Origin: an uncultured Bacilli bacterium
GTDB lineage: Bacteria; Bacillota_I; Bacilli_A; RF39; UBA660
Direction: 5' to 3'
DNA: 32,958 bases
Assembly: GCA_944331955.1 (NCBI GenBank)
Contig: CALVIY010000012.1
Location: 1 to 32,958 of the forward strand
Shown here: piece after piece, positions 5,619 to 32,958 of the stretch
Layout: every line of letters begins with the position of its first letter
Numbering within the stretch: the stretch's first letter is position 1
Notes under the pieces: model-generated
What the model was told of the DNA's origin: nothing
The model's database searches: none
What the model saw: the letters and a program-made list of their open reading frames with translations, nothing else
Made by a program: the position numbers and the translations under genes

Positions 5619-5659
5619 AAGAGTTTTGGCAAAGTTATTAGTAGAAAGGCCGTGATTAT

Positions 5660-6307: not shown

Positions 6308-6347
6308 TTAGACAAATTATTTATAATTATAATAATATGATAAGAGT

Positions 6348-7517: not shown

Positions 7518-7535
7518 TATAAAAGATGCTATAAT
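7509..7535 (+). promoter_or_regulatory. Extended -10 promoter of the first prepilin gene
   Basis: TTGACT (7509-7514) overlaps the last codons of the glycosidase gene; TGCTATAAT (7527-7535) is a perfect extended -10. The spacer is 15 nt, short but compensated by the TGn element. Confidence 0.65.
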
Positions 7536-7568
7536 ATATATATGAAGGTAAAGTAAGGTTGTGATTGT

Positions 7569-8081
7569 GTGGGAAGAAAAGGATTTACATTAATTGAACT
7601 TTTGGCGACGATACTAATACTTTCTCTTTTAATGTTAGTGGCTGTACCTAATGTTATGAGTACAATCGATAAAAATAAAAGAGATACTTATGTAGAGGAT
7701 GCTAAAAGAATGATTACTTTGGCTGAATATAAGGTTAGAAGTGATACTAGTATAGAACTGCCTACTTCTGGTAATTGTATTGTACTTAAACTTAGTAGTC
7801 TTGATTTAAGTGATTTTAATGAAGGACCTGAAGGTGGTAGTTATAATCTTGCAAATTCATATGTAGTTATGGCAAGAAGTGGTAGTACTTATAAGTATTA
7901 TGCTACTATTGTTGAGAATTATGATGGCACAAAAAGAGGGCTTCCACTTACTTCTAGAGAAAATTTAAATAAATCATCTGCTAGAAATGAAGTCTTAAGT
8001 GGAAGTGAACTTAGGGTTACAACTCCTTCTGTTGGTTCAAAATTAAGTGGCTTTACTGTTAAGAAGATTATTGACAGTTAG
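7569..8081 (+). CDS. Type IV prepilin-like protein (divergent member)
   Basis: A 170-residue protein with a class-III (type IV pilin-like) signal: MGRKG followed by FTLIELL, so cleavage is expected after G5, leaving N-terminal F and the conserved E5 of the mature form, then about 20 hydrophobic residues. The C-terminal two thirds is a soluble head with one cysteine (GNCIVL) at a position comparable to the GQCLVV of the next three pilins. It starts at GTG (7569), because no other start is in frame before the upstream stop at 7554; AAGG lies nearby. It is clearly a paralogue of the downstream triplet but well diverged. No prepilin peptidase or assembly ATPase is in the window, so whether these form pili, pseudopili or DNA-uptake fibres cannot be decided. 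Confidence 0.85.
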   Translation: MGRKGFTLIELLATILILSLLMLVAVPNVMSTIDKNKRDTYVEDAKRMITLAEYKVRSDTSIELPTSGNCIVLKLSSLDLSDFNEGPEGGSYNLANSYVVMARSGSTYKYYATIVENYDGTKRGLPLTSRENLNKSSARNEVLSGSELRVTTPSVGSKLSGFTVKKIIDS

Positions 8082-8127: not shown

Positions 8128-8691
8128 ATGCAAAAAAAGGTTAATAAGAAAGGTTTTACCTTAATTGAATTACTTGCTGTTATTATAATTTTAGCAATTT
8201 TAATGACACTTGCTATTACAGCAATGTCTGGTTATATTAGAAATGCTAGAAAAGATACATTTATTACAACAGCACAACAATATGCAAATGCGGCGAGACT
8301 TAGCTTTATAAATGGTGAATATAATGCTACTCCTGGTCGTGGTCAATGTTTAGTTGTTCAAACATCTACAGTTGCCTTAGAAAGTGGTAGTACAGATAGT
8401 TCATTTGATCAACCATTTGATAAAAAAAATAGTTATATTGTAATACGTAATGTAACACAAACTTCTGCAACAGGTGCAGATGATGCTTATGAATATTATA
8501 TTCAAATGGCAGATCAACAAGGCAATGGTTTTGGACTAAAACAAGAAAATGATATCGAAAGAGAAGATGTAGTTCAAAATGATGCAGATGATGAAACAGA
8601 ATTCCAAACACCAACAAAAAATGGCACTTTGAAATTATATACTTCAGGTGGCCAAGATGGTACATGTACTGTTGTAGATATTATATCTTAA
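8128..8691 (+). CDS. Type IV prepilin-like protein, tandem copy 1
   Basis: A 187-residue prepilin-like protein. Prepilin leader MQKKVNKKG, cleavage before FTLIELLAV (mature E5 present), hydrophobic helix to about residue 31, then a soluble domain with two cysteines (GQCLVV and GTCTVV near the C-terminus) that could form the disulfide-bounded loop seen in many pilins. Ribosome site GGAGG at 8115-8119. The protein differs from copy 2 by a single residue (V5 versus N5). Its upstream region is unlike those of copies 2 and 3, whereas its 3' part and downstream spacer equal those of copy 2, so it is the founder of the left end of the array. Each copy carries its own promoter and terminator, implying high expression of a major subunit. 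Confidence 0.88.
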   Translation: MQKKVNKKGFTLIELLAVIIILAILMTLAITAMSGYIRNARKDTFITTAQQYANAARLSFINGEYNATPGRGQCLVVQTSTVALESGSTDSSFDQPFDKKNSYIVIRNVTQTSATGADDAYEYYIQMADQQGNGFGLKQENDIEREDVVQNDADDETEFQTPTKNGTLKLYTSGGQDGTCTVVDIIS

Positions 8692-8693
8692 TT

Positions 8694-8722
8694 AAGAACA
8701 GGAAGAGACTTGTTCTTTTTTT
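8694..8722 (+). terminator. Terminator of pilin copy 1
   Basis: Stem AAGAACAGG (8694-8702) with the complementary half at 8709-8717 (one G-U pair), followed by seven T residues (8716-8722). Confidence 0.75.
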
Positions 8723-8757
8723 CTTTACATCTTTTAACTTTTTAAAAGCAATTTAAA

Positions 8758-8786
8758 TTGACAGTTACAACAATATTTGCTATTAT
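8758..8786 (+). promoter_or_regulatory. Promoter of pilin copy 2
   Basis: TTGACA (8758-8763), exactly 17 nt, TATTAT (8781-8786) preceded by TGC: a near-consensus extended -10 sigma-A promoter. Confidence 0.8.
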
Positions 8787-8814
8787 TAAATAGTAAGATA
8801 TGGAGGTTTAAGAT

Positions 8815-9378
8815 ATGCAAAAGAAAAATAATAAGAAAGGTTTTACTTTAATCGAATTACTTGCTGTTATTATAATTTTAGCAATTTTAATGACACTTGC
8901 TATTACAGCAATGTCTGGTTATATTAGAAATGCTAGAAAAGATACATTTATTACAACAGCACAACAATATGCAAATGCGGCGAGACTTAGCTTTATAAAT
9001 GGTGAATATAATGCTACTCCTGGTCGTGGTCAATGTTTAGTTGTTCAAACATCTACAGTTGCCTTAGAAAGTGGTAGTACAGATAGTTCATTTGATCAAC
9101 CATTTGATAAAAAAAATAGTTATATTGTAATACGTAATGTAACACAAACTTCTGCAACAGGTGCAGATGATGCTTATGAATATTATATTCAAATGGCAGA
9201 TCAACAAGGCAATGGTTTTGGACTAAAACAAGAAAATGATATCGAAAGAGAAGATGTAGTTCAAAATGATGCAGATGATGAAACAGAATTCCAAACACCA
9301 ACAAAAAATGGCACTTTGAAATTATATACTTCAGGTGGCCAAGATGGTACATGTACTGTTGTAGATATTATATCTTAA
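8815..9378 (+). CDS. Type IV prepilin-like protein, tandem copy 2 (chimeric)
   Basis: A 187-residue prepilin with leader MQKKNNKKG, mature FTLIELLAV, hydrophobic helix and a two-cysteine head domain. Its promoter, ribosome site (GGAGG at 8802-8806) and first 13 codons are identical in DNA to copy 3, while everything after the shared core is identical to copy 1, including the terminator. It is therefore best read as the recombinant gene created when the array grew from two to three copies. The protein should be fully functional, being a mosaic of two intact ones. Expression signals are as strong as those of its neighbours. Confidence 0.88.
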   Translation: MQKKNNKKGFTLIELLAVIIILAILMTLAITAMSGYIRNARKDTFITTAQQYANAARLSFINGEYNATPGRGQCLVVQTSTVALESGSTDSSFDQPFDKKNSYIVIRNVTQTSATGADDAYEYYIQMADQQGNGFGLKQENDIEREDVVQNDADDETEFQTPTKNGTLKLYTSGGQDGTCTVVDIIS

Positions 9379-9380
9379 TT

Positions 9381-9409
9381 AAGAACAGGAAGAGACTTGT
9401 TCTTTTTTT
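9381..9409 (+). terminator. Terminator of pilin copy 2
   Basis: Exact duplicate of the copy 1 terminator, shifted by 687 bp. Confidence 0.75.
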
Positions 9410-9444
9410 CTTTACATCTTTTAACTTTTTAAAAGCAATTTAAA

Positions 9445-9473
9445 TTGACAGTTACAACAATATTTGCTATTAT
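9445..9473 (+). promoter_or_regulatory. Promoter of pilin copy 3
   Basis: Exact duplicate of the copy 2 promoter: TTGACA (9445-9450), 17 nt, TATTAT (9468-9473) with TG element. Confidence 0.8.
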
Positions 9474-9501
9474 TAAATAGTAAGATATGGAGGTTTAAGA
9501 T

Positions 9502-10065
9502 ATGCAAAAGAAAAATAATAAGAAAGGTTTTACTTTAATCGAATTACTTGCTGTTATTATAATTTTAGCAATTTTAATGACACTTGCTATTACAGCAATG
9601 TCTGGTTATATTAGAAATGCTAGAAAAGATACATTTATTACAACAGCACAACAATATGCAAATGCGGCGAGACTTAGCTTTATAAATGGTGAATATAATG
9701 CTACTCCTGGTCGTGGTCAATGTTTAGTTGTTCAAACATCTACAGTTGCCTTAGAAAGTGGTAGTACAGATAGTTCATTTGATCAACCATTTGATAAAAA
9801 AAATAGTTATATTGTAATACGTAATGTAACACAAACTTCTGCAACAGGTGCAGATGATGCTTATGAATATTATATTCAAATGGCAGATCAACAAGGCAAT
9901 GGTTTTGCATTAATGCAAGAGAATGATATCGAAAGAGAAGATGTTGTTCAAAACGATGCGGCTGATCAAACAGGCTTCCAAACACCTAAAAAGAGTAGTA
10001 AGTTAACACTATATAATTCTGGTGGATCTGATGGTACATGTACAGTAGTAGATGTTATATCTTAG
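9502..10065 (+). CDS. Type IV prepilin-like protein, tandem copy 3
   Basis: A 187-residue prepilin identical to copies 1 and 2 up to about residue 134. The last 53 residues then carry about a dozen substitutions (for example FALMQEN for FGLKQEN, TPKKSS for TPTKNG). Both cysteines, GQCLVV and GTCTVV, are kept. The DNA also diverges at silent sites in this C-terminal part, so it represents an older, independently evolving paralogue whose core has been homogenised with the others. The downstream terminator is unrelated to those of copies 1 and 2, marking the right end of the array. The variable C-terminal face suggests different surface properties of the assembled subunits. Confidence 0.88.
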   Translation: MQKKNNKKGFTLIELLAVIIILAILMTLAITAMSGYIRNARKDTFITTAQQYANAARLSFINGEYNATPGRGQCLVVQTSTVALESGSTDSSFDQPFDKKNSYIVIRNVTQTSATGADDAYEYYIQMADQQGNGFALMQENDIEREDVVQNDAADQTGFQTPKKSSKLTLYNSGGSDGTCTVVDVIS

Positions 10066-10140: not shown

Positions 10141-10169
10141 AAATATTAGTTCTTTGGGGAGGAATATAA

Positions 10170-12485
10170 ATGGCAAAGTTACCTATTTTAATTGTTAATA
10201 CGGCTATACTTTTTCCTGGAATGGAATATAGGGGTGAGAGTGTAGACTATCTTGAACAAAATATAATTGATACAGTAGATAAGACTGATAGTAAAGAATT
10301 AGTTATAATCCATTCTATTGATAATATAAGTACAGATGATGTTACAGAATTTCCAAAAATAGGTCTTTTAGCAACCCTAACTTTAAAACTAAATATTCCA
10401 AACTCAAAGATGCGTTATATCTTTATTGGTTTAAAAAGAATAGAGATATCTTCTTACGAAGAAGAAAATGGTATTTATTATGCTAATTATAAAGAAATAA
10501 ATATTAATAAAGACAATCCTTTAGAAGAAGATAAATATTTAAATATGTTATATCGTAATTATGAGAAATATGTTAGAGAAATATCTACAGTTAGTAATGC
10601 TATGTTAGGAGAGATTTCTTCTATTAATAGTTTAGATAAACTAACAGATTTTATTGTTTCATTCTTAAATTTATCACCAGAAGTTAAAAAGAGTTATTTA
10701 TATGAATTAGATCCTATTAAAAGAGCGATTTCTTTAGTTAGTCAATTAAAAGAAGAAATTAATTTAGCGAAACTTGAAAAAGAAATAGAAGTTAAAGTTC
10801 ATAAGAAAATAGATGAAGATCAAAGAAGATATTATTTATCTGAGAAAATGAAAATAATATCTAATGAACTTGGTACTGTTAGTAGTAAAAGTATTATTAT
10901 TGAAAACTTTAATAAGAAATTAAAAAAACTTAAATGTTCTAATAAAGTAAGAAGTAAAATTAAAGAAGAAATTGCTCATTATAAATCTATTAATGAAAGT
11001 ACTCCAGAATCATCAATATTAAGAGAATATCTTGAATTAATGTTAAGTTTACCTTGGGATTATAAAACTCGTGATATAACAGATATTAAAGAAATAGAAA
11101 CTACTTTAAATAATAGTCATTATGGTCTTAGTAAAGTAAAGTCAAGAATTGTTGAATATATTGCTGTTAAACAGAATTCTCCTAAAGAAAAGAGTCCTAT
11201 TCTTTGTTTAATAGGACCTCCTGGGGTTGGTAAGACTTCTCTTGCTAAAACAATTGCTAAAGCCTTAAATCGCCGTCTTGTTAGTGTTTCTGTTGGAGGA
11301 GTTAATGATGAAGCGGAAATTGTAGGACATAGAAGAACTTATGTAGGGGCTTTACCTGGTAGAATAATTAGTGGTATTAGAAAGTGTGGTAGTTCTAATC
11401 CTGTCTTTATTATAGATGAGATTGATAAGATGACTAAGAACTTTAGGGGAGATCCTGCTAGTAGTCTTTTAGAAGTTTTAGATAAAGAACAAAATAGTAC
11501 TTTTTATGATCATTATTTAGAAGAAGAGTATGACTTATCTAATGTCTTGTTTATTGCTACTGCTAATTATGAAGACCAGATACCTCCTGAATTAAAAGAT
11601 AGATTGGAAATTATCTATTTAGATTCATATACAGAGTATGAAAAACTATCTATTGCTAAAAATTATTTAATACCAAGAGCTTTAGATGAACATGGATTAA
11701 CATCATTACAAGTTAATTTTACTGATGAAGCGATACTTGATATTATTAATTACTATACTAAAGAAGCAGGAGTTAGAAATTTAGAAAGATTAATTTCTAA
11801 AATACTTAGAAAGATAGTAAAAAGAGTTTTAACAGAAAGTGATGCTGTCTTTTATTCTATTACTAGTAATGATTTAGAAGAGTATTTAGATAGAAAAGTT
11901 TATACTAATAGAGAAAATAAAGAAACAAAACTAAAGGGTGTTGTTAATGGCCTTGCTTATACTCCTTATGGAGGTGATACTTTACCTATAGAAGTAACTT
12001 ATTATAAAGGAAACTCTAATTTACTTTTAACTGGTTCTTTAGGGGAAGTAATGCAAGAGTCTGCTAAAATAGCTTTAAGTTATATAAAATCTAATGCTAA
12101 AAAGTTTAATCTTTCTAAAGATATCTTTAATTGTGATATTCATATTCATGTACCAGAGGGTGCTATTCCTAAAGAAGGTCCAAGTGCAGGGATTGCCCTT
12201 ACTACGGCTTTACTTAGCGCTTTTACTAATACTAAGATATCTACACGTATTGCAATGACAGGTGAGATTACTTTACAAGGAGATATTTTAGAAATAGGTG
12301 GAGTGAAAGAAAAAGTATTAGGAGCATATAGAGAAGGAATTAAGACTATTTATTTACCTTTAAAAAATAAAGATGATGTTAAAGATATACCTCTTGAAAT
12401 AAGAGAAAAACTAGAGTTTATTTATGTATCTAATTATAATGAACTATATGAAAATTTATTTTGTAAAGAGGAAGTAATGTGTTAG
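10170..12485 (+). CDS. lon: ATP-dependent protease LonA
   Basis: Hexameric AAA+ serine protease for quality control and regulatory proteolysis in the cytoplasm. Domain order: N-terminal LonN substrate domain (about 1-190), coiled coil, AAA+ module with Walker A GPPGVGKT (349-356) and Walker B VFIIDEIDK, then the peptidase domain with catalytic S672 in KEGPSAG and K715 in GGVKEK. Length 771 is normal for LonA. Ribosome site GGGGAGG before the ATG. The 3' end overlaps the next gene's GTG by 7 nt. The N-terminal domain is less conserved than the rest but has the usual start (LPILIVNTAILFPGM). Confidence 0.97.
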   Translation: MAKLPILIVNTAILFPGMEYRGESVDYLEQNIIDTVDKTDSKELVIIHSIDNISTDDVTEFPKIGLLATLTLKLNIPNSKMRYIFIGLKRIEISSYEEENGIYYANYKEININKDNPLEEDKYLNMLYRNYEKYVREISTVSNAMLGEISSINSLDKLTDFIVSFLNLSPEVKKSYLYELDPIKRAISLVSQLKEEINLAKLEKEIEVKVHKKIDEDQRRYYLSEKMKIISNELGTVSSKSIIIENFNKKLKKLKCSNKVRSKIKEEIAHYKSINESTPESSILREYLELMLSLPWDYKTRDITDIKEIETTLNNSHYGLSKVKSRIVEYIAVKQNSPKEKSPILCLIGPPGVGKTSLAKTIAKALNRRLVSVSVGGVNDEAEIVGHRRTYVGALPGRIISGIRKCGSSNPVFIIDEIDKMTKNFRGDPASSLLEVLDKEQNSTFYDHYLEEEYDLSNVLFIATANYEDQIPPELKDRLEIIYLDSYTEYEKLSIAKNYLIPRALDEHGLTSLQVNFTDEAILDIINYYTKEAGVRNLERLISKILRKIVKRVLTESDAVFYSITSNDLEEYLDRKVYTNRENKETKLKGVVNGLAYTPYGGDTLPIEVTYYKGNSNLLLTGSLGEVMQESAKIALSYIKSNAKKFNLSKDIFNCDIHIHVPEGAIPKEGPSAGIALTTALLSAFTNTKISTRIAMTGEITLQGDILEIGGVKEKVLGAYREGIKTIYLPLKNKDDVKDIPLEIREKLEFIYVSNYNELYENLFCKEEVMC

Positions 12486-13075
12486 ATGAAAAAATAGAGG
12501 CTCTTAATGTTAAATCTTCTCTAGCATACTTAGATTATTTTGAAAGTTTAAAATCTTTTGATTATAATACTTTAATAAATGGTGTTAATTATCTATTAGA
12601 TTTAGAAAAAGAGTTTTTCTTTTTAGATGATGTGTTCTTAGATTCTGTTATTAAAATAATTACTATATATAATGATAAATCTACTTTAAAAAAATTACTT
12701 AATATTAAAAGTACTGATATTTTAATAAAAGAACAAGAAGTAGATAAATATTTAATAAAAGAATATTTTAAAAGAGGCTTTATCTTTGACTATGTAGGTT
12801 ATTTAGATTTATTAGAACTTGATGATTTATTAATAAATGAAGAAGATTATAGTGAACTTATAGATAGCCCTTATATCATATATTCTATTAACTATTTAAA
12901 AAGAGAATTTGCAGATTATTATCTTGAAAATAGAAAAGCAGATAATTATTTATTATCAATATTAAAACTATTAAGTAAAGAAAAATATAGTGATGTAGAT
13001 ACTATTAATAAAACTTTAAAATTATTTAAAAAAAGAGAAGATGGGATTATTACTTTTAGAAGTAAAATAAAGTAA
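12479..13075 (+). CDS. Hypothetical protein, coupled to lon
   Basis: I do not recognise this 198-residue protein. It is soluble, without signal peptide or membrane segment, rich in L, K, D, I and Y, and probably all-helical, with a repeating leucine/aspartate pattern (YLDLLELDDLLINEEDYSELI). It begins with GTG inside the end of lon (7-nt overlap) and has AAAGAGGA before it, so it is translated from the lon message; the only nearby ATG (12486) is out of frame. In Bacillus the gene after lonA is the GTPase gene ysxC, but there is no P-loop here. Its coding end forms half of a terminator hairpin. A Lon-linked or purely lineage-specific function is equally possible. Confidence 0.7.
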   Translation: MLDEKIEALNVKSSLAYLDYFESLKSFDYNTLINGVNYLLDLEKEFFFLDDVFLDSVIKIITIYNDKSTLKKLLNIKSTDILIKEQEVDKYLIKEYFKRGFIFDYVGYLDLLELDDLLINEEDYSELIDSPYIIYSINYLKREFADYYLENRKADNYLLSILKLLSKEKYSDVDTINKTLKLFKKREDGIITFRSKIK

Positions 13076-13087
13076 TAATCCTTTTTT
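13044..13087 (+). terminator. Terminator of the lon operon, inside the coding end
   Basis: Perfect 13-bp stem GGATTATTACTTT (13044-13056) with its complement at 13069-13081, 12-nt loop, then TTTTTT (13082-13087). The 5' arm and the stop codon (13073-13075) of the upstream gene are part of the hairpin. Confidence 0.85.
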
Positions 13088-13122
13088 ATTATCATATATT
13101 TTAACTAAGGAAAGGAGATAAT

Positions 13123-13944
13123 ATGAAACAGATAATAACTTTAGAAAAAGAAATAGCTTTTAAAACTATGTTGGGAGATATTACTAGTATTTCCTTAGAA
13201 CCTGATTTAGCGTTCATTAATGATAGTGAAATAGAGGGTAATTTAATAATTAGTGGTACTTATAAAATGACAGAAGCATCTACTTTAGAAGAAAAATTTA
13301 ATTATAAAGTACCAGTTGAAATTATGCTTACAACTTCATTATTAGAAGATAAAAGAAAAGTAGATGTTAATAACTTTACTTATGAAATTGTTAATGAAGA
13401 AGCTTTAGCGATTAAAGTAGAACTCTTAATAGAAGGATTAGAGAAAATAGAAATAGAAGAAGATGATAACATGGATTTAAAAGAAGAAGTTAGAAATTCA
13501 GATAGTGAAGAAGAGGAAATAGAAGTGTTAACTACTAATGATTTAGATGATACTACTGAAGAAGTAACTACAAATGTTATGAGTGATGATATTAAAGAAG
13601 AGATATCTACAGTTATGAATGATGATGTTAAAGAAGAAGTATCTACAGTTATGAATGAAGAAGTTAAAGAAGAATTACCTACTTTAAAAGAGGAAGCAGA
13701 GACTATTAAAGAAGATACTAATAATAAAAAAGTTATGGATTCTATCTTTTCTGCTTTTGCTAATACAGATGAGACATATGCAACATATTCAGTTTATATT
13801 TTAAGAGAAGATGATAATTTAGAAGAAGTAATAACTAAATATAAAACTAATAGAGAAGCTTTAGCAGAATATAATGATTTAGATAATTTAAAAGTAGGTT
13901 CTAAGTTAATAATTCCTACTGCTATAGAATCTAATGATAAATAA
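13123..13944 (+). CDS. SpoVID-like LysM protein
   Basis: A 273-residue protein in three parts: an N-terminal beta-rich domain (about 1-115), a very acidic linker (about 115-210) and a C-terminal LysM domain (about 221-266, ending VGSKLIIPT) that would bind glycan. The N-terminal segment (SISLEPDLAFINDSEIEGNL, later VDVNNFTYEI) resembles the N-domain of the Bacillus spore coat morphogenetic protein SpoVID, which also ends in LysM; this rests on remembered family features and was not searched. There is no signal peptide, consistent with a mother-cell protein such as SpoVID but odd for a wall binder. The linker holds 36-nt tandem repeats. Ribosome site AAAGGAG. It overlaps the next gene by 11 nt. 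An ordinary intracellular LysM protein of other function is the alternative. Confidence 0.6.
   Translation: MKQIITLEKEIAFKTMLGDITSISLEPDLAFINDSEIEGNLIISGTYKMTEASTLEEKFNYKVPVEIMLTTSLLEDKRKVDVNNFTYEIVNEEALAIKVELLIEGLEKIEIEEDDNMDLKEEVRNSDSEEEEIEVLTTNDLDDTTEEVTTNVMSDDIKEEISTVMNDDVKEEVSTVMNEEVKEELPTLKEEAETIKEDTNNKKVMDSIFSAFANTDETYATYSVYILREDDNLEEVITKYKTNREALAEYNDLDNLKVGSKLIIPTAIESNDK
13585..13692 (+). repeat. 36-nt tandem repeats in the acidic linker
   Basis: Three in-frame units starting at 13585, 13621 and 13657 encode DDIKEEISTVMN, DDVKEEVSTVMN and the more diverged EEVKEELPTLKE. The first two units are nearly identical in DNA. This is a plausible site of repeat-number variation. Confidence 0.85.
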
Positions 13945-14788
13945 ATTTACTTATTTAAAAAATGTTAAAGTAATAGATGATGCGGATCATAAAATATTAA
14001 TTAAAAATAAGAAAAAATATGATATAGATAAAATATATAAATACTTAGATGATCATAATATTAATAACTATTTAAAGCCTTTTAAAATAACAGATAGAAA
14101 TTTATATTTTGATTATTTAGATAAAAAAAGATTAGATAATGATGAAGTTGCAAAACATTTAATCTTTGCTTTAGCAGATTTAGAGAATAAAACTACTATT
14201 TATAGAGAAATAGATAAAGATAAATTAAAAGAAGAATATGATAACTTTAATATGAAAATAAACTATTTAGAAGAGTATTATTTTACTTTACAAGATATGA
14301 TTGAAAATAAAGTATATCCATCACCTTCTGAATATCTTTTTATAAGAAATGTCTCAATTATATATAGTGCTTTAAATTATTCTAAACATTTATTAGAAAA
14401 ATGGTATAAAATAATGAAAGAGAAAACTAGAGAAAGATATGTATATGCTCATGGTAAATGTGAACTTAGTCATTTTATTACTTCTAGTAATGATTATTTT
14501 ATTAGTTTAGAGAATGCTCATATTGCAAGAGTACCAACTGATTTTATATACTTTTTTAAAAGGAATTATAAAGATACTGATATGATAAGTAATTTTAAAC
14601 TATATCAACATAGGTATCATTATAAAGAAGAAGAATATCTATATTTATTAATAAATTTAACTATACCAGAAAAGATTAATATATATCCTTCTAGTTTAAA
14701 TAAATGTATAGAATTAAGTGAGTTTTTTGATAGATTAAAATTTACTAGTGAATTTATATCAAAAAATGAGAAAGATAAGAAGCACTAA
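13934..14788 (+). CDS. YsxE/CotS-like kinase-fold protein (tentative)
   Basis: A 284-residue soluble protein whose layout recalls the CotS/YutH/YsxE group of kinase-fold spore coat proteins. A helical middle region (NYLEEYYFTLQDMI, SALNYSKHLLEKWY) is followed by a catalytic-loop-like segment YVYAHGKCELSHFI and then YFISLENAHIARVPTDF, which occupy the places of the HGDLHxxN and IDFD(R/K)A motifs of aminoglycoside-kinase folds. The usual D of HGD is K here and the metal-binding D is E, so it would be a pseudokinase. It starts inside the end of the SpoVID-like gene. In Bacillus subtilis spoVID is followed by ysxE, not far from lonA, and this parallel supports the call. The match is from memory of motifs, so confidence is moderate. 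Confidence 0.5.
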   Translation: MINKFTYLKNVKVIDDADHKILIKNKKKYDIDKIYKYLDDHNINNYLKPFKITDRNLYFDYLDKKRLDNDEVAKHLIFALADLENKTTIYREIDKDKLKEEYDNFNMKINYLEEYYFTLQDMIENKVYPSPSEYLFIRNVSIIYSALNYSKHLLEKWYKIMKEKTRERYVYAHGKCELSHFITSSNDYFISLENAHIARVPTDFIYFFKRNYKDTDMISNFKLYQHRYHYKEEEYLYLLINLTIPEKINIYPSSLNKCIELSEFFDRLKFTSEFISKNEKDKKH

Positions 14789-14980
14789 GAAAAGAATTAA
14801 TTCTATTAATAATAGTAAAGCATGAATTCTTGTTACTAAAAATAAAAGTAATATCGCTTGATAAAAGATTATAACTAAGAGTGCTAGAAGACTACCTAAA
14901 TAGAAGATACTGTTTCTTCTTTTTTGTTTGCAATAATTGCATCTACAGAAAGGACTATGTTTGTTTCCTTTAAATTTCAT
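14759..14980 (-). CDS. Small membrane protein with CxCxxC motif
   Basis: A 73-residue protein on the minus strand, MKFKGNKHSPFCRCNYCKQK..., with a short cysteine motif (CRCNYC, possible metal binding) followed by two hydrophobic segments (about 27-47 and 50-72). I chose the ATG at 14980 rather than the in-frame GTG at 14989 because AGGTGA then lies 5 nt upstream. Its 3' end overlaps the convergent YsxE-like gene by 30 nt. Function is unknown. The good ribosome site and membrane-protein composition favour a real gene over a shadow frame, but no strong promoter was found. Confidence 0.55.
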   Translation of the reverse strand: MKFKGNKHSPFCRCNYCKQKRRNSIFYLGSLLALLVIIFYQAILLLFLVTRIHALLLLIELILFLVLLIFLIF

Positions 14981-15018
14981 GCTTATCACCTATAATAGTT
15001 TATGAAATAATAAAAAAG

Positions 15019-15048
15019 TTGTTAAAAGACTAAAAATAATGATAGAAT
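15019..15048 (+). promoter_or_regulatory. Putative promoter of the hypothetical-dnaI pair
   Basis: TTGTTA (15019-15024), 18-nt spacer, TAGAAT (15043-15048), ending 20 nt before the chosen ATG. Confidence 0.5.
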
Positions 15049-15068
15049 GTATTTAGCAGGTGGTATTT

Positions 15069-15506
15069 ATGGATTATAATAAAGTAATAGATAATTTTTC
15101 AAGAAGAGTTATGGGTTTTAATGATGAATTGGTTTTTAATTATGATAAAGTAGTAGAACGTTATATTCTTCTTTTAGATTATTATGCTAAAAATTTAACT
15201 CATGATGAACTTGTAAGTATGGATTATTATGAGAGTTTAAATTTTAGTTTTAACTATTGTACAGGATATATTATCGCAGAATATCTTAATGATGATTTAG
15301 ATACTTCTAAGATAAATGAGAAGGCAAAAGAAAATGAGCATTTTAGTTCAATTTTAACTTCTTCTTCTAAAATAGTAGAAAGATTAAATGATTATGGAGA
15401 AGAAGAGATGGCATCAATATTAGGGGCATATTTTTATACTATTGCAAATGCTGTATATGATTTTGAAAATTCTAAAGAAATGGGTAATGCTAAAATATAT
15501 AGTTAG
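15069..15506 (+). CDS. Hypothetical protein upstream of dnaI
   Basis: I do not recognise this 145-residue protein (MDYNKVIDNFSRRVMGF...). It is soluble and looks helical, rich in Y, D, E and N, with no signal, membrane segment or clear motif. I chose the ATG at 15069 rather than the in-frame GTG at 15060 because AGCAGGTGG (15054-15062) is then correctly placed. It lies 11 nt before dnaI and should be co-transcribed with it. In Bacilli the position before dnaI is normally taken by dnaB/dnaD-type primosome genes, but the DnaD-like motif YxxxIxxxW is not seen, so a primosomal role is only a possibility. Confidence 0.7.
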   Translation: MDYNKVIDNFSRRVMGFNDELVFNYDKVVERYILLLDYYAKNLTHDELVSMDYYESLNFSFNYCTGYIIAEYLNDDLDTSKINEKAKENEHFSSILTSSSKIVERLNDYGEEEMASILGAYFYTIANAVYDFENSKEMGNAKIYS

Positions 15507-15517
15507 GAAGTGGTTAT

Positions 15518-16423
15518 ATGAAGAAGATTAGTACATTAATAAAAAAAGAAGATGTTGTTAAGTTAAAGAGTTATTATGGGGAAGCTTTAAATGATAAAGA
15601 CTTTAGTGATTATGTAAGTAAGCTTGATGTTAGTATGGATGTTTTAATTAAATATACTTCTAGTATAGAAGATGCTGTTATGGAGTTAAATAATTGTAGG
15701 AAGTGTAAGGGGTTAAAGAATTGTCCTAATACTTTAAGAGGCCATGTTTTTAAAGCGATTAAAGATGGAAATAATTTAAACTTTAGTTATGCACCTTGTT
15801 CTAAGCTTATTAGGGAAGAAGATACTTATGCTTATAAAAAGAATATTACTTGTTTTGAACTTCCTAAAGAAATAAGTGAAGCTTCTTTTTCTTATGCTTA
15901 TAGAGATGATAAGAAAAGATTACCTATCTTTAAATATTTTAAAGAATTTATGGATAGTTATTTAAAAGATAAAAAAGGTAAGGGATTATATTTAAGCGGT
16001 TCTTTTGGAAGTGGTAAGACTTATTTAATAGCAGCATTATTTAATGAACTTGCTAAGAAGGGGGTAAGTTCTGCTTTAGTATATTATCCTGAGTTATTGA
16101 GAAGTTTAAAGTCTTCTTTTGGTAGTGATTATGAAGAGAAGTTTGATTTTATTAAAAGAGTACCTTTATTATTATTAGATGATATAGGAGCTGAAAATAC
16201 TACTTCTTGGAGTAGAGATGAGGTTTTAGGACCTATACTTCAATATCGAATGGAAGAAGAATTACCAACGTTTTTTACTTCTAATTTAAAGATAGATGAA
16301 TTAGAGAGTGTTTTAAGTATTACAAACAGTGGGGTTGAAAAGATTAAAGCGAAAAGAATTGTAGAAAGAATTAAACAATTAACTGTTTCTTTAGAATTAA
16401 TAAGTAAAAATCGGAGAAATTAA
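15518..16423 (+). CDS. dnaI: Primosomal helicase loader DnaI
   Basis: AAA+ loader that places the replicative helicase DnaC on DNA. The N-terminal helicase-binding domain carries a zinc site (C60, C63, C69, C94; CRKCKGLKNC), and the C-terminal AAA+ domain has Walker A GSFGSGKT (161-168), Walker B LLLLDDIGAE (from residue 217) and a sensor-1-like FFTSN. Length 301 matches the family. The ribosome site is GGAAG before the ATG. It is the second gene after the unknown 145-residue protein and is followed by a modest terminator. There is no dnaB/dnaD neighbour in the window. Confidence 0.92.
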   Translation: MKKISTLIKKEDVVKLKSYYGEALNDKDFSDYVSKLDVSMDVLIKYTSSIEDAVMELNNCRKCKGLKNCPNTLRGHVFKAIKDGNNLNFSYAPCSKLIREEDTYAYKKNITCFELPKEISEASFSYAYRDDKKRLPIFKYFKEFMDSYLKDKKGKGLYLSGSFGSGKTYLIAALFNELAKKGVSSALVYYPELLRSLKSSFGSDYEEKFDFIKRVPLLLLDDIGAENTTSWSRDEVLGPILQYRMEEELPTFFTSNLKIDELESVLSITNSGVEKIKAKRIVERIKQLTVSLELISKNRRN

Positions 16424-16433
16424 AAAATAATTT

Positions 16434-16462
16434 AGAAAGAGTAGAATTTTCTTTCTTTTTTT
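16434..16462 (+). terminator. Terminator after dnaI
   Basis: Stem AGAAAGA (16434-16440) with TCTTTCT (16450-16456), 9-nt loop, running into seven T residues (16456-16462). The stem is AT-rich and rather weak. Confidence 0.55.
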
Positions 16463-16469
16463 GGTATTA

Positions 16470-16475
16470 TATAAT
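16470..16475 (+). promoter_or_regulatory. -10 element of pnp promoter
   Basis: TATAAT at 16470-16475. A good -35 is not evident; TTTTCT near 16447 overlaps the dnaI terminator. Confidence 0.45.
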
Positions 16476-16495
16476 AGATTTTGGAGGAAGTAGAT

Positions 16496-18655
16496 ATGAC
16501 TAAAAAAGTATATGAATATGATTTTTATGGAAAGAAAATAATTGTAGAACATGGTGAGCTTGCTAAACAGGCCAGTGGTTCTGTTTTAGTTAGATATAAT
16601 GATACTGTTATATTAACGGCAACAGTTATTAATAAGAATACTAATCTTTTAAGTGATTTCTTTCCTTTAACTGTAAATTATCAAGAGAAACTTTATTCTG
16701 TAGGAAAGATTCCTGGAGGGTTTATAAAAAGAGAAGGAAGACCTACTGAAGCTGCTACACTTGCTGCTAGAATGATTGATAGACCTATGAGACCTTTATT
16801 TAAAGAAGATTTTAAAAATGAAGTTCAAGTTATTAATACAGTTTTATCTGTTGATCAAGATTGTTCTCCTGAGTTAACTGCAATGTTAGGATCTTCTCTT
16901 GCAACATTAATCAGTGGTGCGCCTTTCTTAGGACCTATCGCTGGGGTTAAAGTTGGGTATGTTGATGGAGAGTATATTATTAATCCAACTGTAGAAGAGT
17001 TAGAAAAAAGTGTTTTAGACCTTACGGTTGCAGGAACAAAGGATGCTATTAATATGGTAGAAGCAGGGGCTAAACAAGTAGACGAAGAGGTTATGCTAGA
17101 AGGACTTATGAAAGGTCATGAAGCGATAAAAGAGTTATGTGCTTGGCAAGAAGAAATAATTACTGATATTGGAGTTACATCATTCCTTTATGAATCTTTA
17201 ACTATTGAAGATGATTTAAGAGATGAAGTAGGTAAACTAATAGAAAAAGACTTAGATGAAGCGTTAAGAATTAAAGAAAAATTAGAACGTTATGGAAAAA
17301 TAGATGAAATTAAAGAAAATCTATTAGAAAAATATAAGGAAGATAATAAAGAACTTGATAAAGAAGAGTTAGATTTATTACTTGTAAAAGTAGAAAAGAT
17401 ATTTAGTGATGTAGAATATAGATTATTTAGAAATATTGTAGTTAAAGAAAAAATAAGATCAGATGGAAGACGTATGGATGAGATTAGACCACTTTCAACT
17501 GATATAGATTTACTTCCTAGAACTCATGGTTCTGCTTTATTTACAAGAGGAGAAACACAATGTCTTGCTGTTACAACACTAGGTGCGTTAGGTGAACATC
17601 AAATTCTTGATGGACTTAGTTTAGAAGATGAAAAAAGATTTATGTTACATTATAACTTTCCTCAGTTCTCAGTTGGTGAGACAGGTAGATATGGTGCACC
17701 TGGAAGACGTGAGATTGGTCATGGGGCTTTAGGTGAGAGAGCACTACTTCAAGTTATTCCTAGTGAAGATGAATTTCCTTATACAATTCGTGTAGTATCA
17801 GAAATACTTGAAAGTAATGGTAGTAGTTCACAAGCATCAATTTGTGCAGGTTGTATGAGTTTAATGGCAGCAGGTGTTCCTATTAAAAGCCCTGTAGCAG
17901 GTATTGCAATGGGTCTTATTACAAGTGATGATGATTATACTATTCTTACAGATATCGCAGGTATGGAAGATCATTTAGGAGATATGGACTTTAAAGTTGC
18001 AGGAACTTCTAATGGTATTACAGCCTTACAAATGGATATTAAGATAAAAGGAGTTACTAAAGAGATATTAAAAGAAGCATTAGAACAAGCTAGAAAAGCA
18101 AGATTAGAAATTCTTGAAGTTATTAAGAAACAGATTCCTGAACCAAGAAAAGAAGTATCTAAGTATGCTCCTAAGACTAAAGTGTTTTATATTTCTCCAT
18201 CTAAAATACGTGATGTTATAGGTAAAGGTGGAGAGATGATTACTAAGATTATCTGTGATGCTAGTAATGTTACTGATGTAAATAATATTAATGCTGTTAA
18301 AGTAGATTTAGAAGATGATGGTAGAGTAATTGTATATCATAGTGATCAGGATATCATTGATAAAACAGTTAAAATGATTGAAGATGTGGCAAGAGAAGTA
18401 GAAGTTGGTAAAGTCTATGAAGCGAAAGTAGTGGCAGTTCATGACTTTGGTTGCTTTGTAGAAGTATGGCCAGGGTGTGAAGGACTTGTTCATGTATCTC
18501 AACTTGATATTAAACATATTGATAAAGTAGAGGATGTTGTAAAGGTAGGAGATACTATCTTAGTGAAAGCGGTAGGTAAAGATAAAAAAGGTAAAGAAAA
18601 TTTCTCTAGAAAAGAAGTATTACTTGATATGAAAAAGAAGAAGTCTAAAGAATAA
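16496..18655 (+). CDS. pnp: Polyribonucleotide nucleotidyltransferase (PNPase)
   Basis: Trimeric 3'-5' phosphorolytic exoribonuclease of the RNA degradosome. Two RNase PH domains with an alpha-helical linker are followed by a KH domain with GKGG at 576-579 (SPSKIRDVIGKGGEMI) and a C-terminal S1 domain (about 636-705, DFGCFVEVWPGCEGLVHVSQ). The ATG at 16496 is chosen over an in-frame TTG at 16481, since GGAGGAAG (16483-16490) sits just before it; this gives 719 residues, the usual length. The lysine-rich tail (KKKKSKE) is encoded by one arm of the terminator. In many Bacilli rpsO precedes pnp; here dnaI does. No long leader for PNPase autoregulation is present. Confidence 0.97.
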   Translation: MTKKVYEYDFYGKKIIVEHGELAKQASGSVLVRYNDTVILTATVINKNTNLLSDFFPLTVNYQEKLYSVGKIPGGFIKREGRPTEAATLAARMIDRPMRPLFKEDFKNEVQVINTVLSVDQDCSPELTAMLGSSLATLISGAPFLGPIAGVKVGYVDGEYIINPTVEELEKSVLDLTVAGTKDAINMVEAGAKQVDEEVMLEGLMKGHEAIKELCAWQEEIITDIGVTSFLYESLTIEDDLRDEVGKLIEKDLDEALRIKEKLERYGKIDEIKENLLEKYKEDNKELDKEELDLLLVKVEKIFSDVEYRLFRNIVVKEKIRSDGRRMDEIRPLSTDIDLLPRTHGSALFTRGETQCLAVTTLGALGEHQILDGLSLEDEKRFMLHYNFPQFSVGETGRYGAPGRREIGHGALGERALLQVIPSEDEFPYTIRVVSEILESNGSSSQASICAGCMSLMAAGVPIKSPVAGIAMGLITSDDDYTILTDIAGMEDHLGDMDFKVAGTSNGITALQMDIKIKGVTKEILKEALEQARKARLEILEVIKKQIPEPRKEVSKYAPKTKVFYISPSKIRDVIGKGGEMITKIICDASNVTDVNNINAVKVDLEDDGRVIVYHSDQDIIDKTVKMIEDVAREVEVGKVYEAKVVAVHDFGCFVEVWPGCEGLVHVSQLDIKHIDKVEDVVKVGDTILVKAVGKDKKGKENFSRKEVLLDMKKKKSKE

Positions 18656-22165: not shown

Positions 22166-22196
22166 AATGTCAGTAAATAATGGGAGGAGTAAGAAA

Positions 22197-23789
22197 ATGA
22201 AAACAAGGAAAAAAGAGAACGTTATAATAATTATAGTATTAGTTGTAATGATACTAGCGATAATAGGAGTAAGTTATGCAGCATTTAGTTTTAGTCAGCA
22301 AGGTAGTGTTCCTAACAAGATTACAACAGGATCAATTACCATGACTTATGAAGAAAGTGATAATACTATCACTTTAGGTAATGCCTTACCTACTCGTGAC
22401 GCGACAGGGACAACAAGATTAAAAGAAGGAGAATACTTTGACTTTACAGTAAGTAGTGAGATAACAGGAGATGTAAATATCAATTATGAAGTGAGTGCTA
22501 AAGAAGTAGGAGATGGCACCATAGATGGTTCTAATATTAAATTATATCTAACAGAGTTAGTAGATGGAGAAGAACAAGAGTTAATGACGCCTGAAGTATA
22601 TAATGAAGAGGCAAGTGAAAATACATATACAGGAAGACCTGCAAATGAAATGAGTTTATATACAAGTAGTATGAATGCAAGTGAAGAACATAATTATAGA
22701 CTTAGAATGTATGTAACAGAAGAATATAATCCTCAAGGAGATGGTGGAGGCCTAGCCTTTAAAGTTCAAGTAAATGTATATGGAAAAGCAGGAGATAAAC
22801 CTTTAACGGGAGCAGAGATGTTGATTAAGAAAGCTAATCCAGAAGATTTAGATTATAATAGTGCAACTGATGAAGAGAAGAAAGAAATGTGGACACATAC
22901 ACATCCAGAAACAGAACAAACAGAAGCACTAACAGATTATAGATATATAGGAGCAGATCCTAATAATTATGTACAGTTTAATAATGAGTTATGGAGAATA
23001 ATAGGAGTATTCACAGTAGATGATGGAACAGGAAAGAAAGAAGAAAGACTAAAGATAATTAGAAATGAATCTATTGGAGAATACTCTTGGGATAATAAAG
23101 ATACTAGTACAGGAGCTGAGTCTGATTTTGGTAAAAATAACTGGACCGATGCAAGACTAAATTACTTATTAAATCCAGGGCACGAAAGTGAAAGCGTAGG
23201 GGGAAGCCTATACTGGAAAAGTGGTGGTGGAACTTGTTATAATGGCTGGGAAAATGCAACAGAAACTTGTGACTTTACAACAACAGGATTAAAAGAAGAG
23301 GCAAGAGACATGATAGGAGATACCCTATGGTATTTAGGAGGAACATCAAGTTACCAAAGTGCAAGTGATGGATTAACAAGCCACTTTTACACATATGAAA
23401 GAGGAACAAATGTATATAGTGGAAGAGACCCCTCATGGGTAGGAAAAGTGGGTTTGATGTATCCAAGTGATTATGGCTATGCAACAAGTGGAGGAAGTAC
23501 AACTGACAGAAATAGTTGTTTAAATAAAGAATTATACAATTGGGATAGTAGTGAATTTGGTGACTGTAAAAACAATAACTGGCTTTATGAAAATAGTTAT
23601 TATCAATGGACTATTTCGCATAGTGTACCAGAATCTTATGGTGTGTTCTATCTGAACATATATGGTAGTTTTTTAAGCGATGGTGCTGGTTTTAGTTACG
23701 GGATTCGCCCAGTTACCTTTCTAAAGTCTGATATAAAAATAACAGATGGAGATGGAAGCAGTAGTAATCCGTATATATTGCAGAGTTAA
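22197..23789 (+). CDS. Large anchored surface protein with C-type-lectin-like C-terminus
   Basis: A 530-residue exported protein. An N-terminal hydrophobic segment (about residues 8-28, ending GVSYAAFSF) and the following NKITTGSITMTY resemble SipW-dependent/TasA-camelysin-type signal regions. A beta-rich ectodomain follows, then a domain (about 250-530) with NNYVQFNNELWRIIGV, GLMYPSDYG, YYQWTISH and finally YGIRPV (Y501-V506) and DGDGSSSNPYIL. The same C-terminal signature occurs in the surface gene at 31279. The stretch before YGIRP (about residues 476-500) has unusual codons (GTG, CTG, AGC, TAC) and sits where variable loops of C-type-lectin-fold proteins lie. The ATG at 22197 follows GGGAGGAG, preferred over an upstream in-frame ATG. 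Ligand unknown. Confidence 0.75.
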   Translation: MKTRKKENVIIIIVLVVMILAIIGVSYAAFSFSQQGSVPNKITTGSITMTYEESDNTITLGNALPTRDATGTTRLKEGEYFDFTVSSEITGDVNINYEVSAKEVGDGTIDGSNIKLYLTELVDGEEQELMTPEVYNEEASENTYTGRPANEMSLYTSSMNASEEHNYRLRMYVTEEYNPQGDGGGLAFKVQVNVYGKAGDKPLTGAEMLIKKANPEDLDYNSATDEEKKEMWTHTHPETEQTEALTDYRYIGADPNNYVQFNNELWRIIGVFTVDDGTGKKEERLKIIRNESIGEYSWDNKDTSTGAESDFGKNNWTDARLNYLLNPGHESESVGGSLYWKSGGGTCYNGWENATETCDFTTTGLKEEARDMIGDTLWYLGGTSSYQSASDGLTSHFYTYERGTNVYSGRDPSWVGKVGLMYPSDYGYATSGGSTTDRNSCLNKELYNWDSSEFGDCKNNNWLYENSYYQWTISHSVPESYGVFYLNIYGSFLSDGAGFSYGIRPVTFLKSDIKITDGDGSSSNPYILQS

Positions 23790-24084: not shown

Positions 24085-24978
24085 TTGAAATCACCTAAAA
24101 AGACTGCTGAAGAAAGAATAAAAGAACTACAAGAAAAAGGAGAAGTTTTTCCTGCTTGAAAAGCTAGCAATGATTATATATATAAATCTATTATGACTAA
24201 TTGCTTTCTTTTTAAGGCAGATATGACTTCTAGGATAACTGGTATACCTAAAGACTTAATACTTAAAACTTACTATGAGAAGAATACTGAATTTGTTGTA
24301 AGTAATGCACTAGAACGTGGAAAAAGATCTGATATATTGTTTGGTGTGGAAGGTTATATCATTAACTATGAGTTAAATAATAGATATAGCTTAGCAACTA
24401 TTATAAGAAACGATAATTACTTAGATAAAGTTAAAATAGACATATCAAGTAAAAACTATACTTATAATAATATGCCAATGGCCATTCAGATTAATTTAAA
24501 TAATTTTAATCATCTTAATAAGAAAAATGAAATAGAAGTTTTTAAATCAAGAGATGAAAATGGGGTAGTAGAAAATGTAAAATGGGAGAAATTCCATTTA
24601 AGTTTTTTAAAAGCTTATAAGAAATATAAAAAGGGATTAAAACTTACTAAATTAGATAAAGAAATGTTAATACTAAGATTAAGAAAAATAGAAGAAATAG
24701 AAAAAATAGCGGAAGGAGACGAAGAATTAATGGAAGTTGCAAATGAATTAAAGAGATTAAGTCTTGATATTAATACAGTGGGACAATATGATGAGGCGGA
24801 AGAGATGGAAAAGATGATGAATAGTCTTAGAGAAGAAGGAGAGATGAAAGGTATTAAAAAGGGTGCTAATAATGAGAAAAAGTCTATTGCAAAAACAATG
24901 CTTGCTAAAAAGATGGATATACCTTTAATAAGTGAATTAACTGGTCTTTCTAAAAAACAAATAACAAGTTTGATGTAG
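24085..24978 (+). pseudogene. Rpn/PD-(D/E)XK nuclease family transposase-like gene with in-frame stop
   Basis: Reading from TTG 24085 (AAAGGAAG upstream) gives KSPKKTAEERIKELQEKGEVFPA, then TGA at codon 25 (24157-24159), then KASNDYIYKSIMTN and the rest in the same frame. Homologues of the Rpn-like (recombination-promoting nuclease, PDDEXK) family carry a similar NDYIFKxIM start, so the open part from ATG 24193 (261 residues) lacks the true N-terminus. The catalytic-type pair is the D of GKRSDILF and the E of NYELNN. The tail has the family's GxxKGxxxxxxxIAxxMLxxxM...ISxLTGLSxxxI pattern. GTGATTT/AAATCAC (24076-24094) forms a hairpin around the start codon. TGG to TGA is one base change. Recoding is rejected because core genes use TGA as stop. 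Confidence 0.7.
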
Positions 24979-31278: not shown

Positions 31279-32958
31279 ATGAAATATAAGATTAAAGAAC
31301 TTATGAAGGCAGATATATCTAAAATCTATATTTTAGGAGTAGGTATTATCTGTTTATTATTAGTAGGAGGATTCTTTTCTTATGCATTATTTACAGTGTC
31401 AGCAGAAAGAGATAATGCAATAAAAATAGTAACAGGTAATTTAATATATGATTTAAAGGTTGATGGTACTACTGGTAATACTTTAACAGTACCAGCAGGA
31501 GAAACAAAGACTTTTACTATTACACTATCTAATCCTAATAATAGAAAAGCAAGATTTAATTTCTATTATGTAGGAAGCCTACCTAGTAATGTAACAGCAG
31601 GTTATATTGTAGGAGATGGTGTTAATACACCTCCAGTAGAAGTAGGAACAAACTTAGAGAAAGCAGATGCTAGTGGCTCTAGTAATACTTATACTATTAG
31701 AGTATCTAATAAGTCAGGTAGTAGTGCAACTATAACTTTAGGAGTAAGTGTAGGTCTAGATTATAATGATTTAATTCTACCTAGTAACGGTCACTTGTTT
31801 GAAGAAATAGTAATGACAGGACCAGTATCAGAAATAGTAATAGATAATTTAACTAGTGGTGACATATATGATGATGGATATGATACATTCATAACAGGAG
31901 AAGATCCAAATAACTATATCTGGTATAGTGGAAAGTTATGGAGAGCGGTAAGTGTTAATAATGAAGCGAAGACAACAAAATTAGTAACCCAGTGGAATAT
32001 AAGTACAATTACTTATTCAAGTGGTAGTACAGATTTTGCAGGAAGTTATATGGAAGACTGGTTAAATGACACTAGTGTTGATGGTTTTTTAGGCAATTTA
32101 AGAGATTATGAGAATTTCATTGTAATAGATGCTATATGGGATGCGACGTTAGATGCTACTGCTCTAGGAAGTATAACAAGACCTAGCAATAGTGGTACAA
32201 TAGTAACAGATGCAGTAGGACTTTTAAATATGTATGAATATCAGTCTAGTAATAATGGAGAAACAAATGGTTATTTAAATAATGGACTTTATTGGTGGAC
32301 ACTAACACCATATAGTACGTCTGACGTGCGTAGCGTCGGCAACTACGGCAACGCGAACAACAACGATCCGGCCTATGCTTACGGCGTGCGACCATCTATA
32401 AATCTAAAATCTAACGTTAAAATTGTAGATGGTGATGGAACAGTAGATAACCCTTATCGCTTAAACGGAGATAATGATACAGACCTTTCAGGAAACCTAC
32501 TTTCAAGTAGATATAGTGGAGAATATATAAAATTTGGGAATGAAGAAAATAATCTATACAGGATAGTAAGCCACGAAAATAGTACAGGGACAAAGATAGT
32601 AAGTGCTGAACCACTAAAAAGTTCGGGAACCTTTATAACAAGTGCCTTTGGAAGTAATACAACATTTTCAAGTACAAATACAATAGGTACATTCTTAAAT
32701 GGCGACTATCTAACAAGTTATGTAGATAGTAGTTATAGTAACATGATAGAAGATAGTACTACATGGTATCTTGGAACAGTAGGGTATGGAACTTCATATA
32801 AACTAGCCAAATATACAAATACTACGGATAATATTCTAACATCAAGTATAACTACAGCAAAGGTAGGATTACTAAGGCATGGAGAATTAATGGCAGGACA
32901 ATTTGATAGATATGGAAATAATACAAGTTATTGGACACTAACACCATATAGTGCGTCT
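31279..32958 (+). CDS. Large surface protein with tandem C-type-lectin-like domains (partial)
   Basis: The reading frame from ATG 31279 (AGGGTGAG upstream) stays open for 560 codons to the window end, so the gene is truncated by the window. An N-terminal anchor (about residues 15-39, YILGVGIICLLLVGGFFSY) is followed by a beta-rich domain of SipW/TasA-like type (AERDNAIKIVTGNLIYDL). A first lectin-like domain (about 220-400) runs from PNNYIWYSGKLWRAVSV to WWTLTPYSTS, YGVRPSINLKS and DGDGTVDNPY, and a second begins near residue 415 (GEYIKFGNEENNLYRIV) and reaches WTLTPYSAS at the end. The C-terminal signature is shared with the gene at 22197. Residues 347-372 are encoded by a GC-rich patch (see the variable region). 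No cognate reverse transcriptase is in the window. Confidence 0.8.
   Translation, partial: MKYKIKELMKADISKIYILGVGIICLLLVGGFFSYALFTVSAERDNAIKIVTGNLIYDLKVDGTTGNTLTVPAGETKTFTITLSNPNNRKARFNFYYVGSLPSNVTAGYIVGDGVNTPPVEVGTNLEKADASGSSNTYTIRVSNKSGSSATITLGVSVGLDYNDLILPSNGHLFEEIVMTGPVSEIVIDNLTSGDIYDDGYDTFITGEDPNNYIWYSGKLWRAVSVNNEAKTTKLVTQWNISTITYSSGSTDFAGSYMEDWLNDTSVDGFLGNLRDYENFIVIDAIWDATLDATALGSITRPSNSGTIVTDAVGLLNMYEYQSSNNGETNGYLNNGLYWWTLTPYSTSDVRSVGNYGNANNNDPAYAYGVRPSINLKSNVKIVDGDGTVDNPYRLNGDNDTDLSGNLLSSRYSGEYIKFGNEENNLYRIVSHENSTGTKIVSAEPLKSSGTFITSAFGSNTTFSSTNTIGTFLNGDYLTSYVDSSYSNMIEDSTTWYLGTVGYGTSYKLAKYTNTTDNILTSSITTAKVGLLRHGELMAGQFDRYGNNTSYWTLTPYSAS
32317..32394 (+). other. Candidate hypervariable region (DGR-like VR)
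   Basis: A 78-nt stretch of about 60% GC (47 of 78 by my count) inside an AT-rich gene. It uses AAC, GGC, GTC, AGC, GAC, TAC and GCC codons where the rest of the gene prefers A- or T-ending ones. Most codons end in C or T, as expected if AAC template codons were mutated to NNC/NNY. It lies between WTLTPYS and YGVRPS, the place of variable loops in C-type-lectin-fold targets. Its upstream flank (32296-32322) recurs at 32932-32958 with a single A/G difference. Confidence 0.55.

Follow-up and report, generated by a model that had tools for sequence, protein, structure and literature searches.

A membrane-anchored DUF6273-type protein of an uncultured Bacilli bacterium carries paired variable regions of a probable chromosomal diversity-generating retroelement

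Introduction

In the diversity-generating retroelement (DGR) of Bordetella phage BPP-1 (Mtd, Avd, bRT), a template repeat (TR) lies beside avd and the reverse transcriptase (RT) gene, sequence differences are adenine-directed, and the variable region (VR) has a GC-rich constant end. In gut phages, DUF6273 has been reported as a domain targeted by DGRs, both in Faecalibacterium prophages (PMC11792537) and in the tentaclins, in whose modelled C-type-lectin-like fold the VR forms a hairpin (PMC10743442). Cellular DGRs with remote targets, some of which match only a TR elsewhere or none that is present, are described in Treponema denticola (PMC4891356) and Thiohalocapsa PB-PSB1 (PMC10907252). Several VRs in one open reading frame are known but uncommon, the MetaCSST survey giving 31 DGRs with VRs in one target frame (PMC6642488). 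Roux et al. found DGRs to be enriched in Firmicutes generally, and argued that cis elements, being intergenic, favour C-terminal VRs and disfavour internal ones (PMC8144416). Our literature search found no paper that combines 'diversity-generating retroelement' with RF39 or Mollicutes.

Here we analyse a stretch of 32,958 nt (hereafter the window) from an uncultured RF39 bacterium, near the end of which an earlier note had proposed a candidate DGR target. Our conclusion is that, very probably, a chromosomal DGR diversifies a membrane-anchored protein of DUF6273 type at the cell surface, the patch concerned being a VR of that protein. The system shares with that of BPP-1 the TR beside avd and RT, the adenine-directed differences and the GC-rich constant VR end, but it is chromosomal and cellular, its target is membrane-anchored and has two VRs (one of them internal), and its targets are scattered over the genome. 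As in the gut-phage DUF6273 targets, the VR lies at the C-terminal end of DUF6273; those, however, are phage proteins, with a receptor-binding role in the tentaclins, whereas the present target is a bacterial membrane protein with tandem DUF6273-like domains, encoded beside housekeeping genes. The Treponema and Thiohalocapsa DGRs are also cellular and have remote targets, but belong to other phyla, and paired VRs per target are not reported in the parts of those papers used here. Unlike the multi-VR DGRs of the MetaCSST survey, the architecture seen here is a two-domain one that recurs across the genus, with VRs ~636-660 nt apart. It is this paired-VR target design, together with the many dispersed targets per genome, that is unusual.

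Results

The target gene occupies positions 31279-32958 of the forward strand, its 3' part being cut off by the end of the contig. The final 77 nt of the window reappear as the first 77 nt of contig C55 from the same genome, and joining the reading frame across this exact overlap gives a protein of 611 residues, in which an N-terminal membrane anchor precedes two DUF6273-like domains that each end in a VR; VR1 is internal and VR2 is near the C-terminus. The predicted transmembrane segment (IYILGVGIICLLLVGGFFS; 31324-31380, forward strand; Kyte-Doolittle maximum 2.42 over 19 residues) would anchor the protein at the cell surface. Pfam places DUF6273 over residues 316-378 (E = 8e-6, above the cut-off), and in two paralogues the family is matched in two stretches. 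In both domains of the window protein the terminal element is a GC-rich loop, after which comes G-V-R-P-S-I-N-L-K. AlphaFold models are poor (mean pLDDT 36 and 52) and their structural matches are non-significant, the weak viral ones including DUF6273 proteins; it is the DUF6273 match, taken together with the literature, that suggests a C-type lectin fold for the target domain. The neighbouring genes, named from reading their frames, are presumably trpS and infB, and because of these neighbours and the lack of any visible prophage genes in the window the locus looks chromosomal. Also encoded in the window (22167-23789) is another membrane-anchored protein whose C-terminus is DUF6273-like. This is a paralogue that is not of the DGR type, and no DGR skeleton was found in its loop (WTISHSVPESYGVFYLNIYGSFLSDGAGFSYGIRP).

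The earlier note had singled out a GC-rich patch of AAC and other NNC codons, and base composition bears this out. At 60% GC, against 33% for the gene and 27% for the window, the 78-nt patch at 32317-32394 has the highest GC of all 78-mers in the window. It is in frame with the gene, has G or C at 19 of its 26 third codon positions compared with 78/534 in the rest of the gene (Fisher p = 1.6e-10), and encodes asparagine by five AAC and no AAT codons, as against 8 AAC and 40 AAT outside. VR1 itself (32314-32391, forward strand) lies inside the protein and is homologous to DGR TRs, being collinear with those that adjoin RTs in relatives. It is preceded by a constant 5' anchor (TGGACACTAACACCATATAGT; 32296-32316, forward strand) whose DNA sequence is conserved in 45 DGR-type VRs from the genus and recurs before VR2. 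The constant 3' flank (32392-32418, forward strand) contains AATCTAAAATCTA at 32401-32413, which motif counts in VRs and paralogues mark as a candidate cis element within coding sequence. The two constant anchors between which the patch had been said to lie are thus real and of wider occurrence, with TGGACNNTAACACCATATAGT upstream and CCATC..AATCTAAAATCTA downstream of most related VRs. The 27-nt flank reported as repeated at the end of the window was also recovered: BLAST aligns 32932-32958 to 32296-32322 with 26/27 identities, the one difference being ACG versus GCG. The repeat (forward strand) holds the constant 5' anchor of VR2, in the same gene, together with the opening bases of that VR, which is interrupted by the end of the contig and resumes on C55 (locus L058/L007).

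The note had further said that a DGR would need a TR and an RT elsewhere in the genome, and elements of both kinds are present in the 1.5 Mb draft, which is 94% complete. RVT_1 is matched by Pfam in contigs C9, C26, C17 and C89, above the cut-off for the RTs of C9 and C26. The C9 and C26 enzymes, of 317 residues each, are 95% identical and have the motifs GLPIGNYTSQ and YMDD. They show the DGR-type combination of a GxxxSQ motif, a compact length and no maturase domain, and the score of 91 with the group II intron equivalog model is far below its cut-off of 300. Among PDB chains they are closest to 8ub7_A (E = 5e-19), which we take to be the BPP-1 DGR RT. An Avd-like frame lies upstream of the RT gene and overlaps it; its product matches the PHROG family 'Avd protein of DGR' (E = 2e-6), supplying an accessory protein of the kind (Avd or HRDC type) found with such RTs, while its match to Pfam bAvd is weak (E = 0.007, below the cut-off). 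These matches of RT and Avd-like protein are a further likeness to the BPP-1 system. The C9 cassette also has a TR, non-coding and intergenic, ~1 kb upstream of the RT, which is homologous to the patch and ends in CATTTCCTTTTAAACCTAG; homologous TRs occupy the same place in relatives. An RT relative was found in 31/35 genomes of the genus, some being only 33-48% identical and counted as relatives rather than as DGR RTs.

Two other features were seen. A further DGR-like RT gene, more distant in sequence, lies in contig C17 of the source genome (G000; loci L001 and L005); it appears to be interrupted, beside the region coding for YMDD, by a group II intron that has an RT of its own. Several DGR cassettes are adjoined by genes of a repeat family with the conserved tail SIAK..L.......I...TGLSKKQIT.LM (L056 16012-16881, L054 7811-8653 and L002), which is also present in the window at 24193-24978.

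The adenine-directed mutagenesis that the earlier note saw as fitting the single ACG/GCG difference is upheld by comparisons of VRs with templates and with one another, as judged by Fisher and hypergeometric tests, both of which ignore relatedness between sequences. Seven relatives provided 12 gap-free comparisons of a TR and a VR from the same locus. The pooled test took pairs with fewer than eight non-adenine differences, a rule set in the script, which removed only the pair of genome G030 (13 non-adenine differences, the VR being unlike the local TR). In the remaining 11 pairs, 114 of 245 template adenines were changed, whereas among the other bases 16 of 494 were (p = 1e-46, relatedness ignored); simple addition over all 12 pairs, G030 included, gives 125/265 adenines against 29/550 other positions. 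VR1 and VR2 of the window gene differ at 14 of 77 positions, none of them at codon position 3. Thirteen of these differences coincide with adenines in the TR of the closest relative, G026 (p = 3e-7, again leaving relatedness aside), and all 14 do so in the TR of G006 (p = 2e-8, with the same proviso). In four VR pairs of the source genome, adenine columns differ in 48/92 cases and other columns in 10/188 (p = 7e-19, relatedness ignored). The two domains of the window gene have a DNA identity of about 45% (range ~35-55%) outside the VR segment and ~80% across it, and the flanks around VR1 and VR2 are also nearly identical, beyond the extent of the TR. High identity across the VRs of otherwise diverged domains is the trace to be expected if one template had written two sites; VR1 and VR2 share one skeleton and were therefore presumably written by one template.

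The non-adenine skeleton of the window VR is TCTNNCGTGCGTNNCGTCNNCNNCNNCGGCNNCGCG, in which N marks the variable positions, and the cognate TR would be expected to carry TCTAACGTGCGTAACGTCAACAAC..GGCAACGCGAACAACAAC. In the 94%-complete draft, no TR was found that agrees with the VR at every non-adenine position. The C9 TR differs from the window VR at 22-23 of 50 non-adenine positions in an ungapped comparison, part of which is due to a one-codon length difference, and the TR of the closest relative has 5-6 non-adenine differences. Three TR 5' flanks are present in the draft, with a full TR at C9 and truncated ones at C46 and C48. Contig C26, which encodes the other RT, starts inside avd, and the TR position of its cassette is therefore unassembled. 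Across the family (291 genomes), exact skeleton matches occur only in the source genome and in the congener G022, whose copy has the same non-adenine skeleton over a 45-nt core and is a VR rather than the missing TR; an exact skeleton search of IMG/VR gave no match. As the cognate TR is absent from the draft, the donor is unassembled, which we regard as the more likely case, or lost, and we can only infer recent activity.

Composition and assembly bear on that activity. Ten DGR-type VRs were recovered in the source genome, eight of 53-57% GC and two of 46-47% GC with eroded skeletons, together with fourteen other paralogous loops of 29-46% GC that have no skeleton. Window VR1 and VR2, at 55-56% GC, stand at the intact end of this series, the AT-rich, skeleton-less members of which appear to show that targets decay. 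The contig breaks off precisely where VR2 starts to vary, at the 77-nt overlap with C55, and the draft has no second copy of the 77-mer at this contig end. The ends of C9 and C46 likewise have exactly 77 nt in common, and overlaps of this length suggest branch points in an assembly graph with k=77. Sequence variants beyond the break were perhaps the cause of branching at VR2, and the place of this junction, where variability begins, may point to active retrohoming or variation in the population, although some other cause could have produced it.

Discussion

We propose that the DGR RT, together with Avd, would reverse-transcribe a TR transcript and miscopy adenines in the process, and that the cDNA would replace the homologous VR, rewriting a putative ligand-binding loop while restoring the GC-rich non-adenine skeleton. 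The target, far from any RT and beside trpS and infB, would be addressed in trans, for which the remote targets described in Thiohalocapsa are a precedent (PMC10907252).

Two explanations would dispense with reverse transcription altogether. Ordinary tandem duplication of a domain, with gene conversion or positive selection acting on a binding loop, accounts readily for two homologous domains in one protein and for VR flanks that are near-identical between copies further than the TR extends. It nevertheless gives no reason for differences to fall on template adenines, or for a non-coding TR to lie next to Avd and an RT of DGR type, and the adenine rule in the local TR/VR pairs of relatives does not follow from it; we consider it very improbable. 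Horizontally acquired GC-rich DNA, or an effect of codon use, would fit the patch being the most GC-rich stretch of the window. The patch is, however, in frame and collinear with paralogues and with TRs of the same genus, and the bases that make it GC-rich are the TR skeleton. Because the TR and paralogue alignments place the patch in this way, we regard such a reading as refuted for practical purposes, and as the least probable of those weighed here.

A more serious alternative accepts the DGR origin but makes the window VR an orphan, a past target whose cognate TR, perhaps with its whole cassette, has been lost, leaving the loop frozen. It draws on the missing cognate TR in a draft whose only full TR is that of C9, those of C46 and C48 being truncated, on the AT-rich, skeleton-less paralogues as a sign that target decay happens, and on Treponema denticola SP32, which is reported to have a remote target matching a TR type that it lacks (PMC4891356). 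Against it, VR1 and VR2 have no difference outside the adenine columns of the G006 TR and have kept their high GC in comparison with the eroded copies (46-47%) and the skeleton-less ones (29-46%), and the draft is only 94% complete and is missing the TR position of C26. We therefore hold this sub-case to be unlikely, though by far the most credible of the three, and prefer a target whose DGR is still in place. The gradation within one genome, from GC-rich VRs down to AT-rich relicts, suggests that base composition could serve as a simple marker of recent activity.

The 3' side of the VRs combines a constant GC-rich end with a flank conserved at the DNA level, a candidate initiation-of-homing element. 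Within that flank AATCTAAAATCTA, encoding N-L-K-S, follows 55/61 DGR-type VRs compared with 10/28 paralogues that have no skeleton (p = 2.4e-7). Its leucine codon is CTA in 60 of the 61 VRs, while CTA makes up 10% of leucine codons in the genes of the window; it is also CTA in 21 of the 28 skeleton-less paralogues, so that part of this conservation reflects shared ancestry. AATCTAAAATCTA is absent from the TR and hence is not simply copied from it. Its conservation could reflect a cis requirement or exchange between paralogues; in the former case a VR could sit inside a protein, at odds with the view that internal VRs are disfavoured (PMC8144416). Our tentative suggestion, which we put at somewhat below even chances, is that the genus commonly builds its targets as two tandem VR domains, one template rewriting two loops, with the internal VR enabled by the coding-embedded AATCTAAAATCTA. 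Paired, internal VRs offer a natural experiment on which target features the machinery of retrohoming requires.

The TR/VR skeleton pattern occurs in 27/35 genomes of the genus, in up to 18 copies per genome (TRs included), and a reversed control gave zero matches. A genus of small-genome gut Bacilli would thus commit a share of its surface repertoire to programmed hypermutation.

Seven genomes of the genus have a TR that breaks off after ~35-40 nt and runs into a palindrome, TTATAAGACATGTCTTATAA, with exactly one copy per genome; junctions lie in L100 (G015:C8) at 10146-16785, in L193 at 5622-7999 and in the source genome at G000:C48:8166-8223. In G015 and G009 the palindrome is followed by runs of adjacent tyrosine recombinase genes that resemble a recombinase-in-trio arrangement. 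We had considered the palindrome as a regulatory hairpin of the DGR and set this aside in view of the bordering recombinase genes; the junctions look like recurrent insertion of a mobile element into DGR templates. The window itself contains, at 8128-10065, three nearly identical tandem genes for prepilin-like proteins of 187 residues each, with the type IV pilin N-terminal signature GFTLIELLAVIIILAILM.
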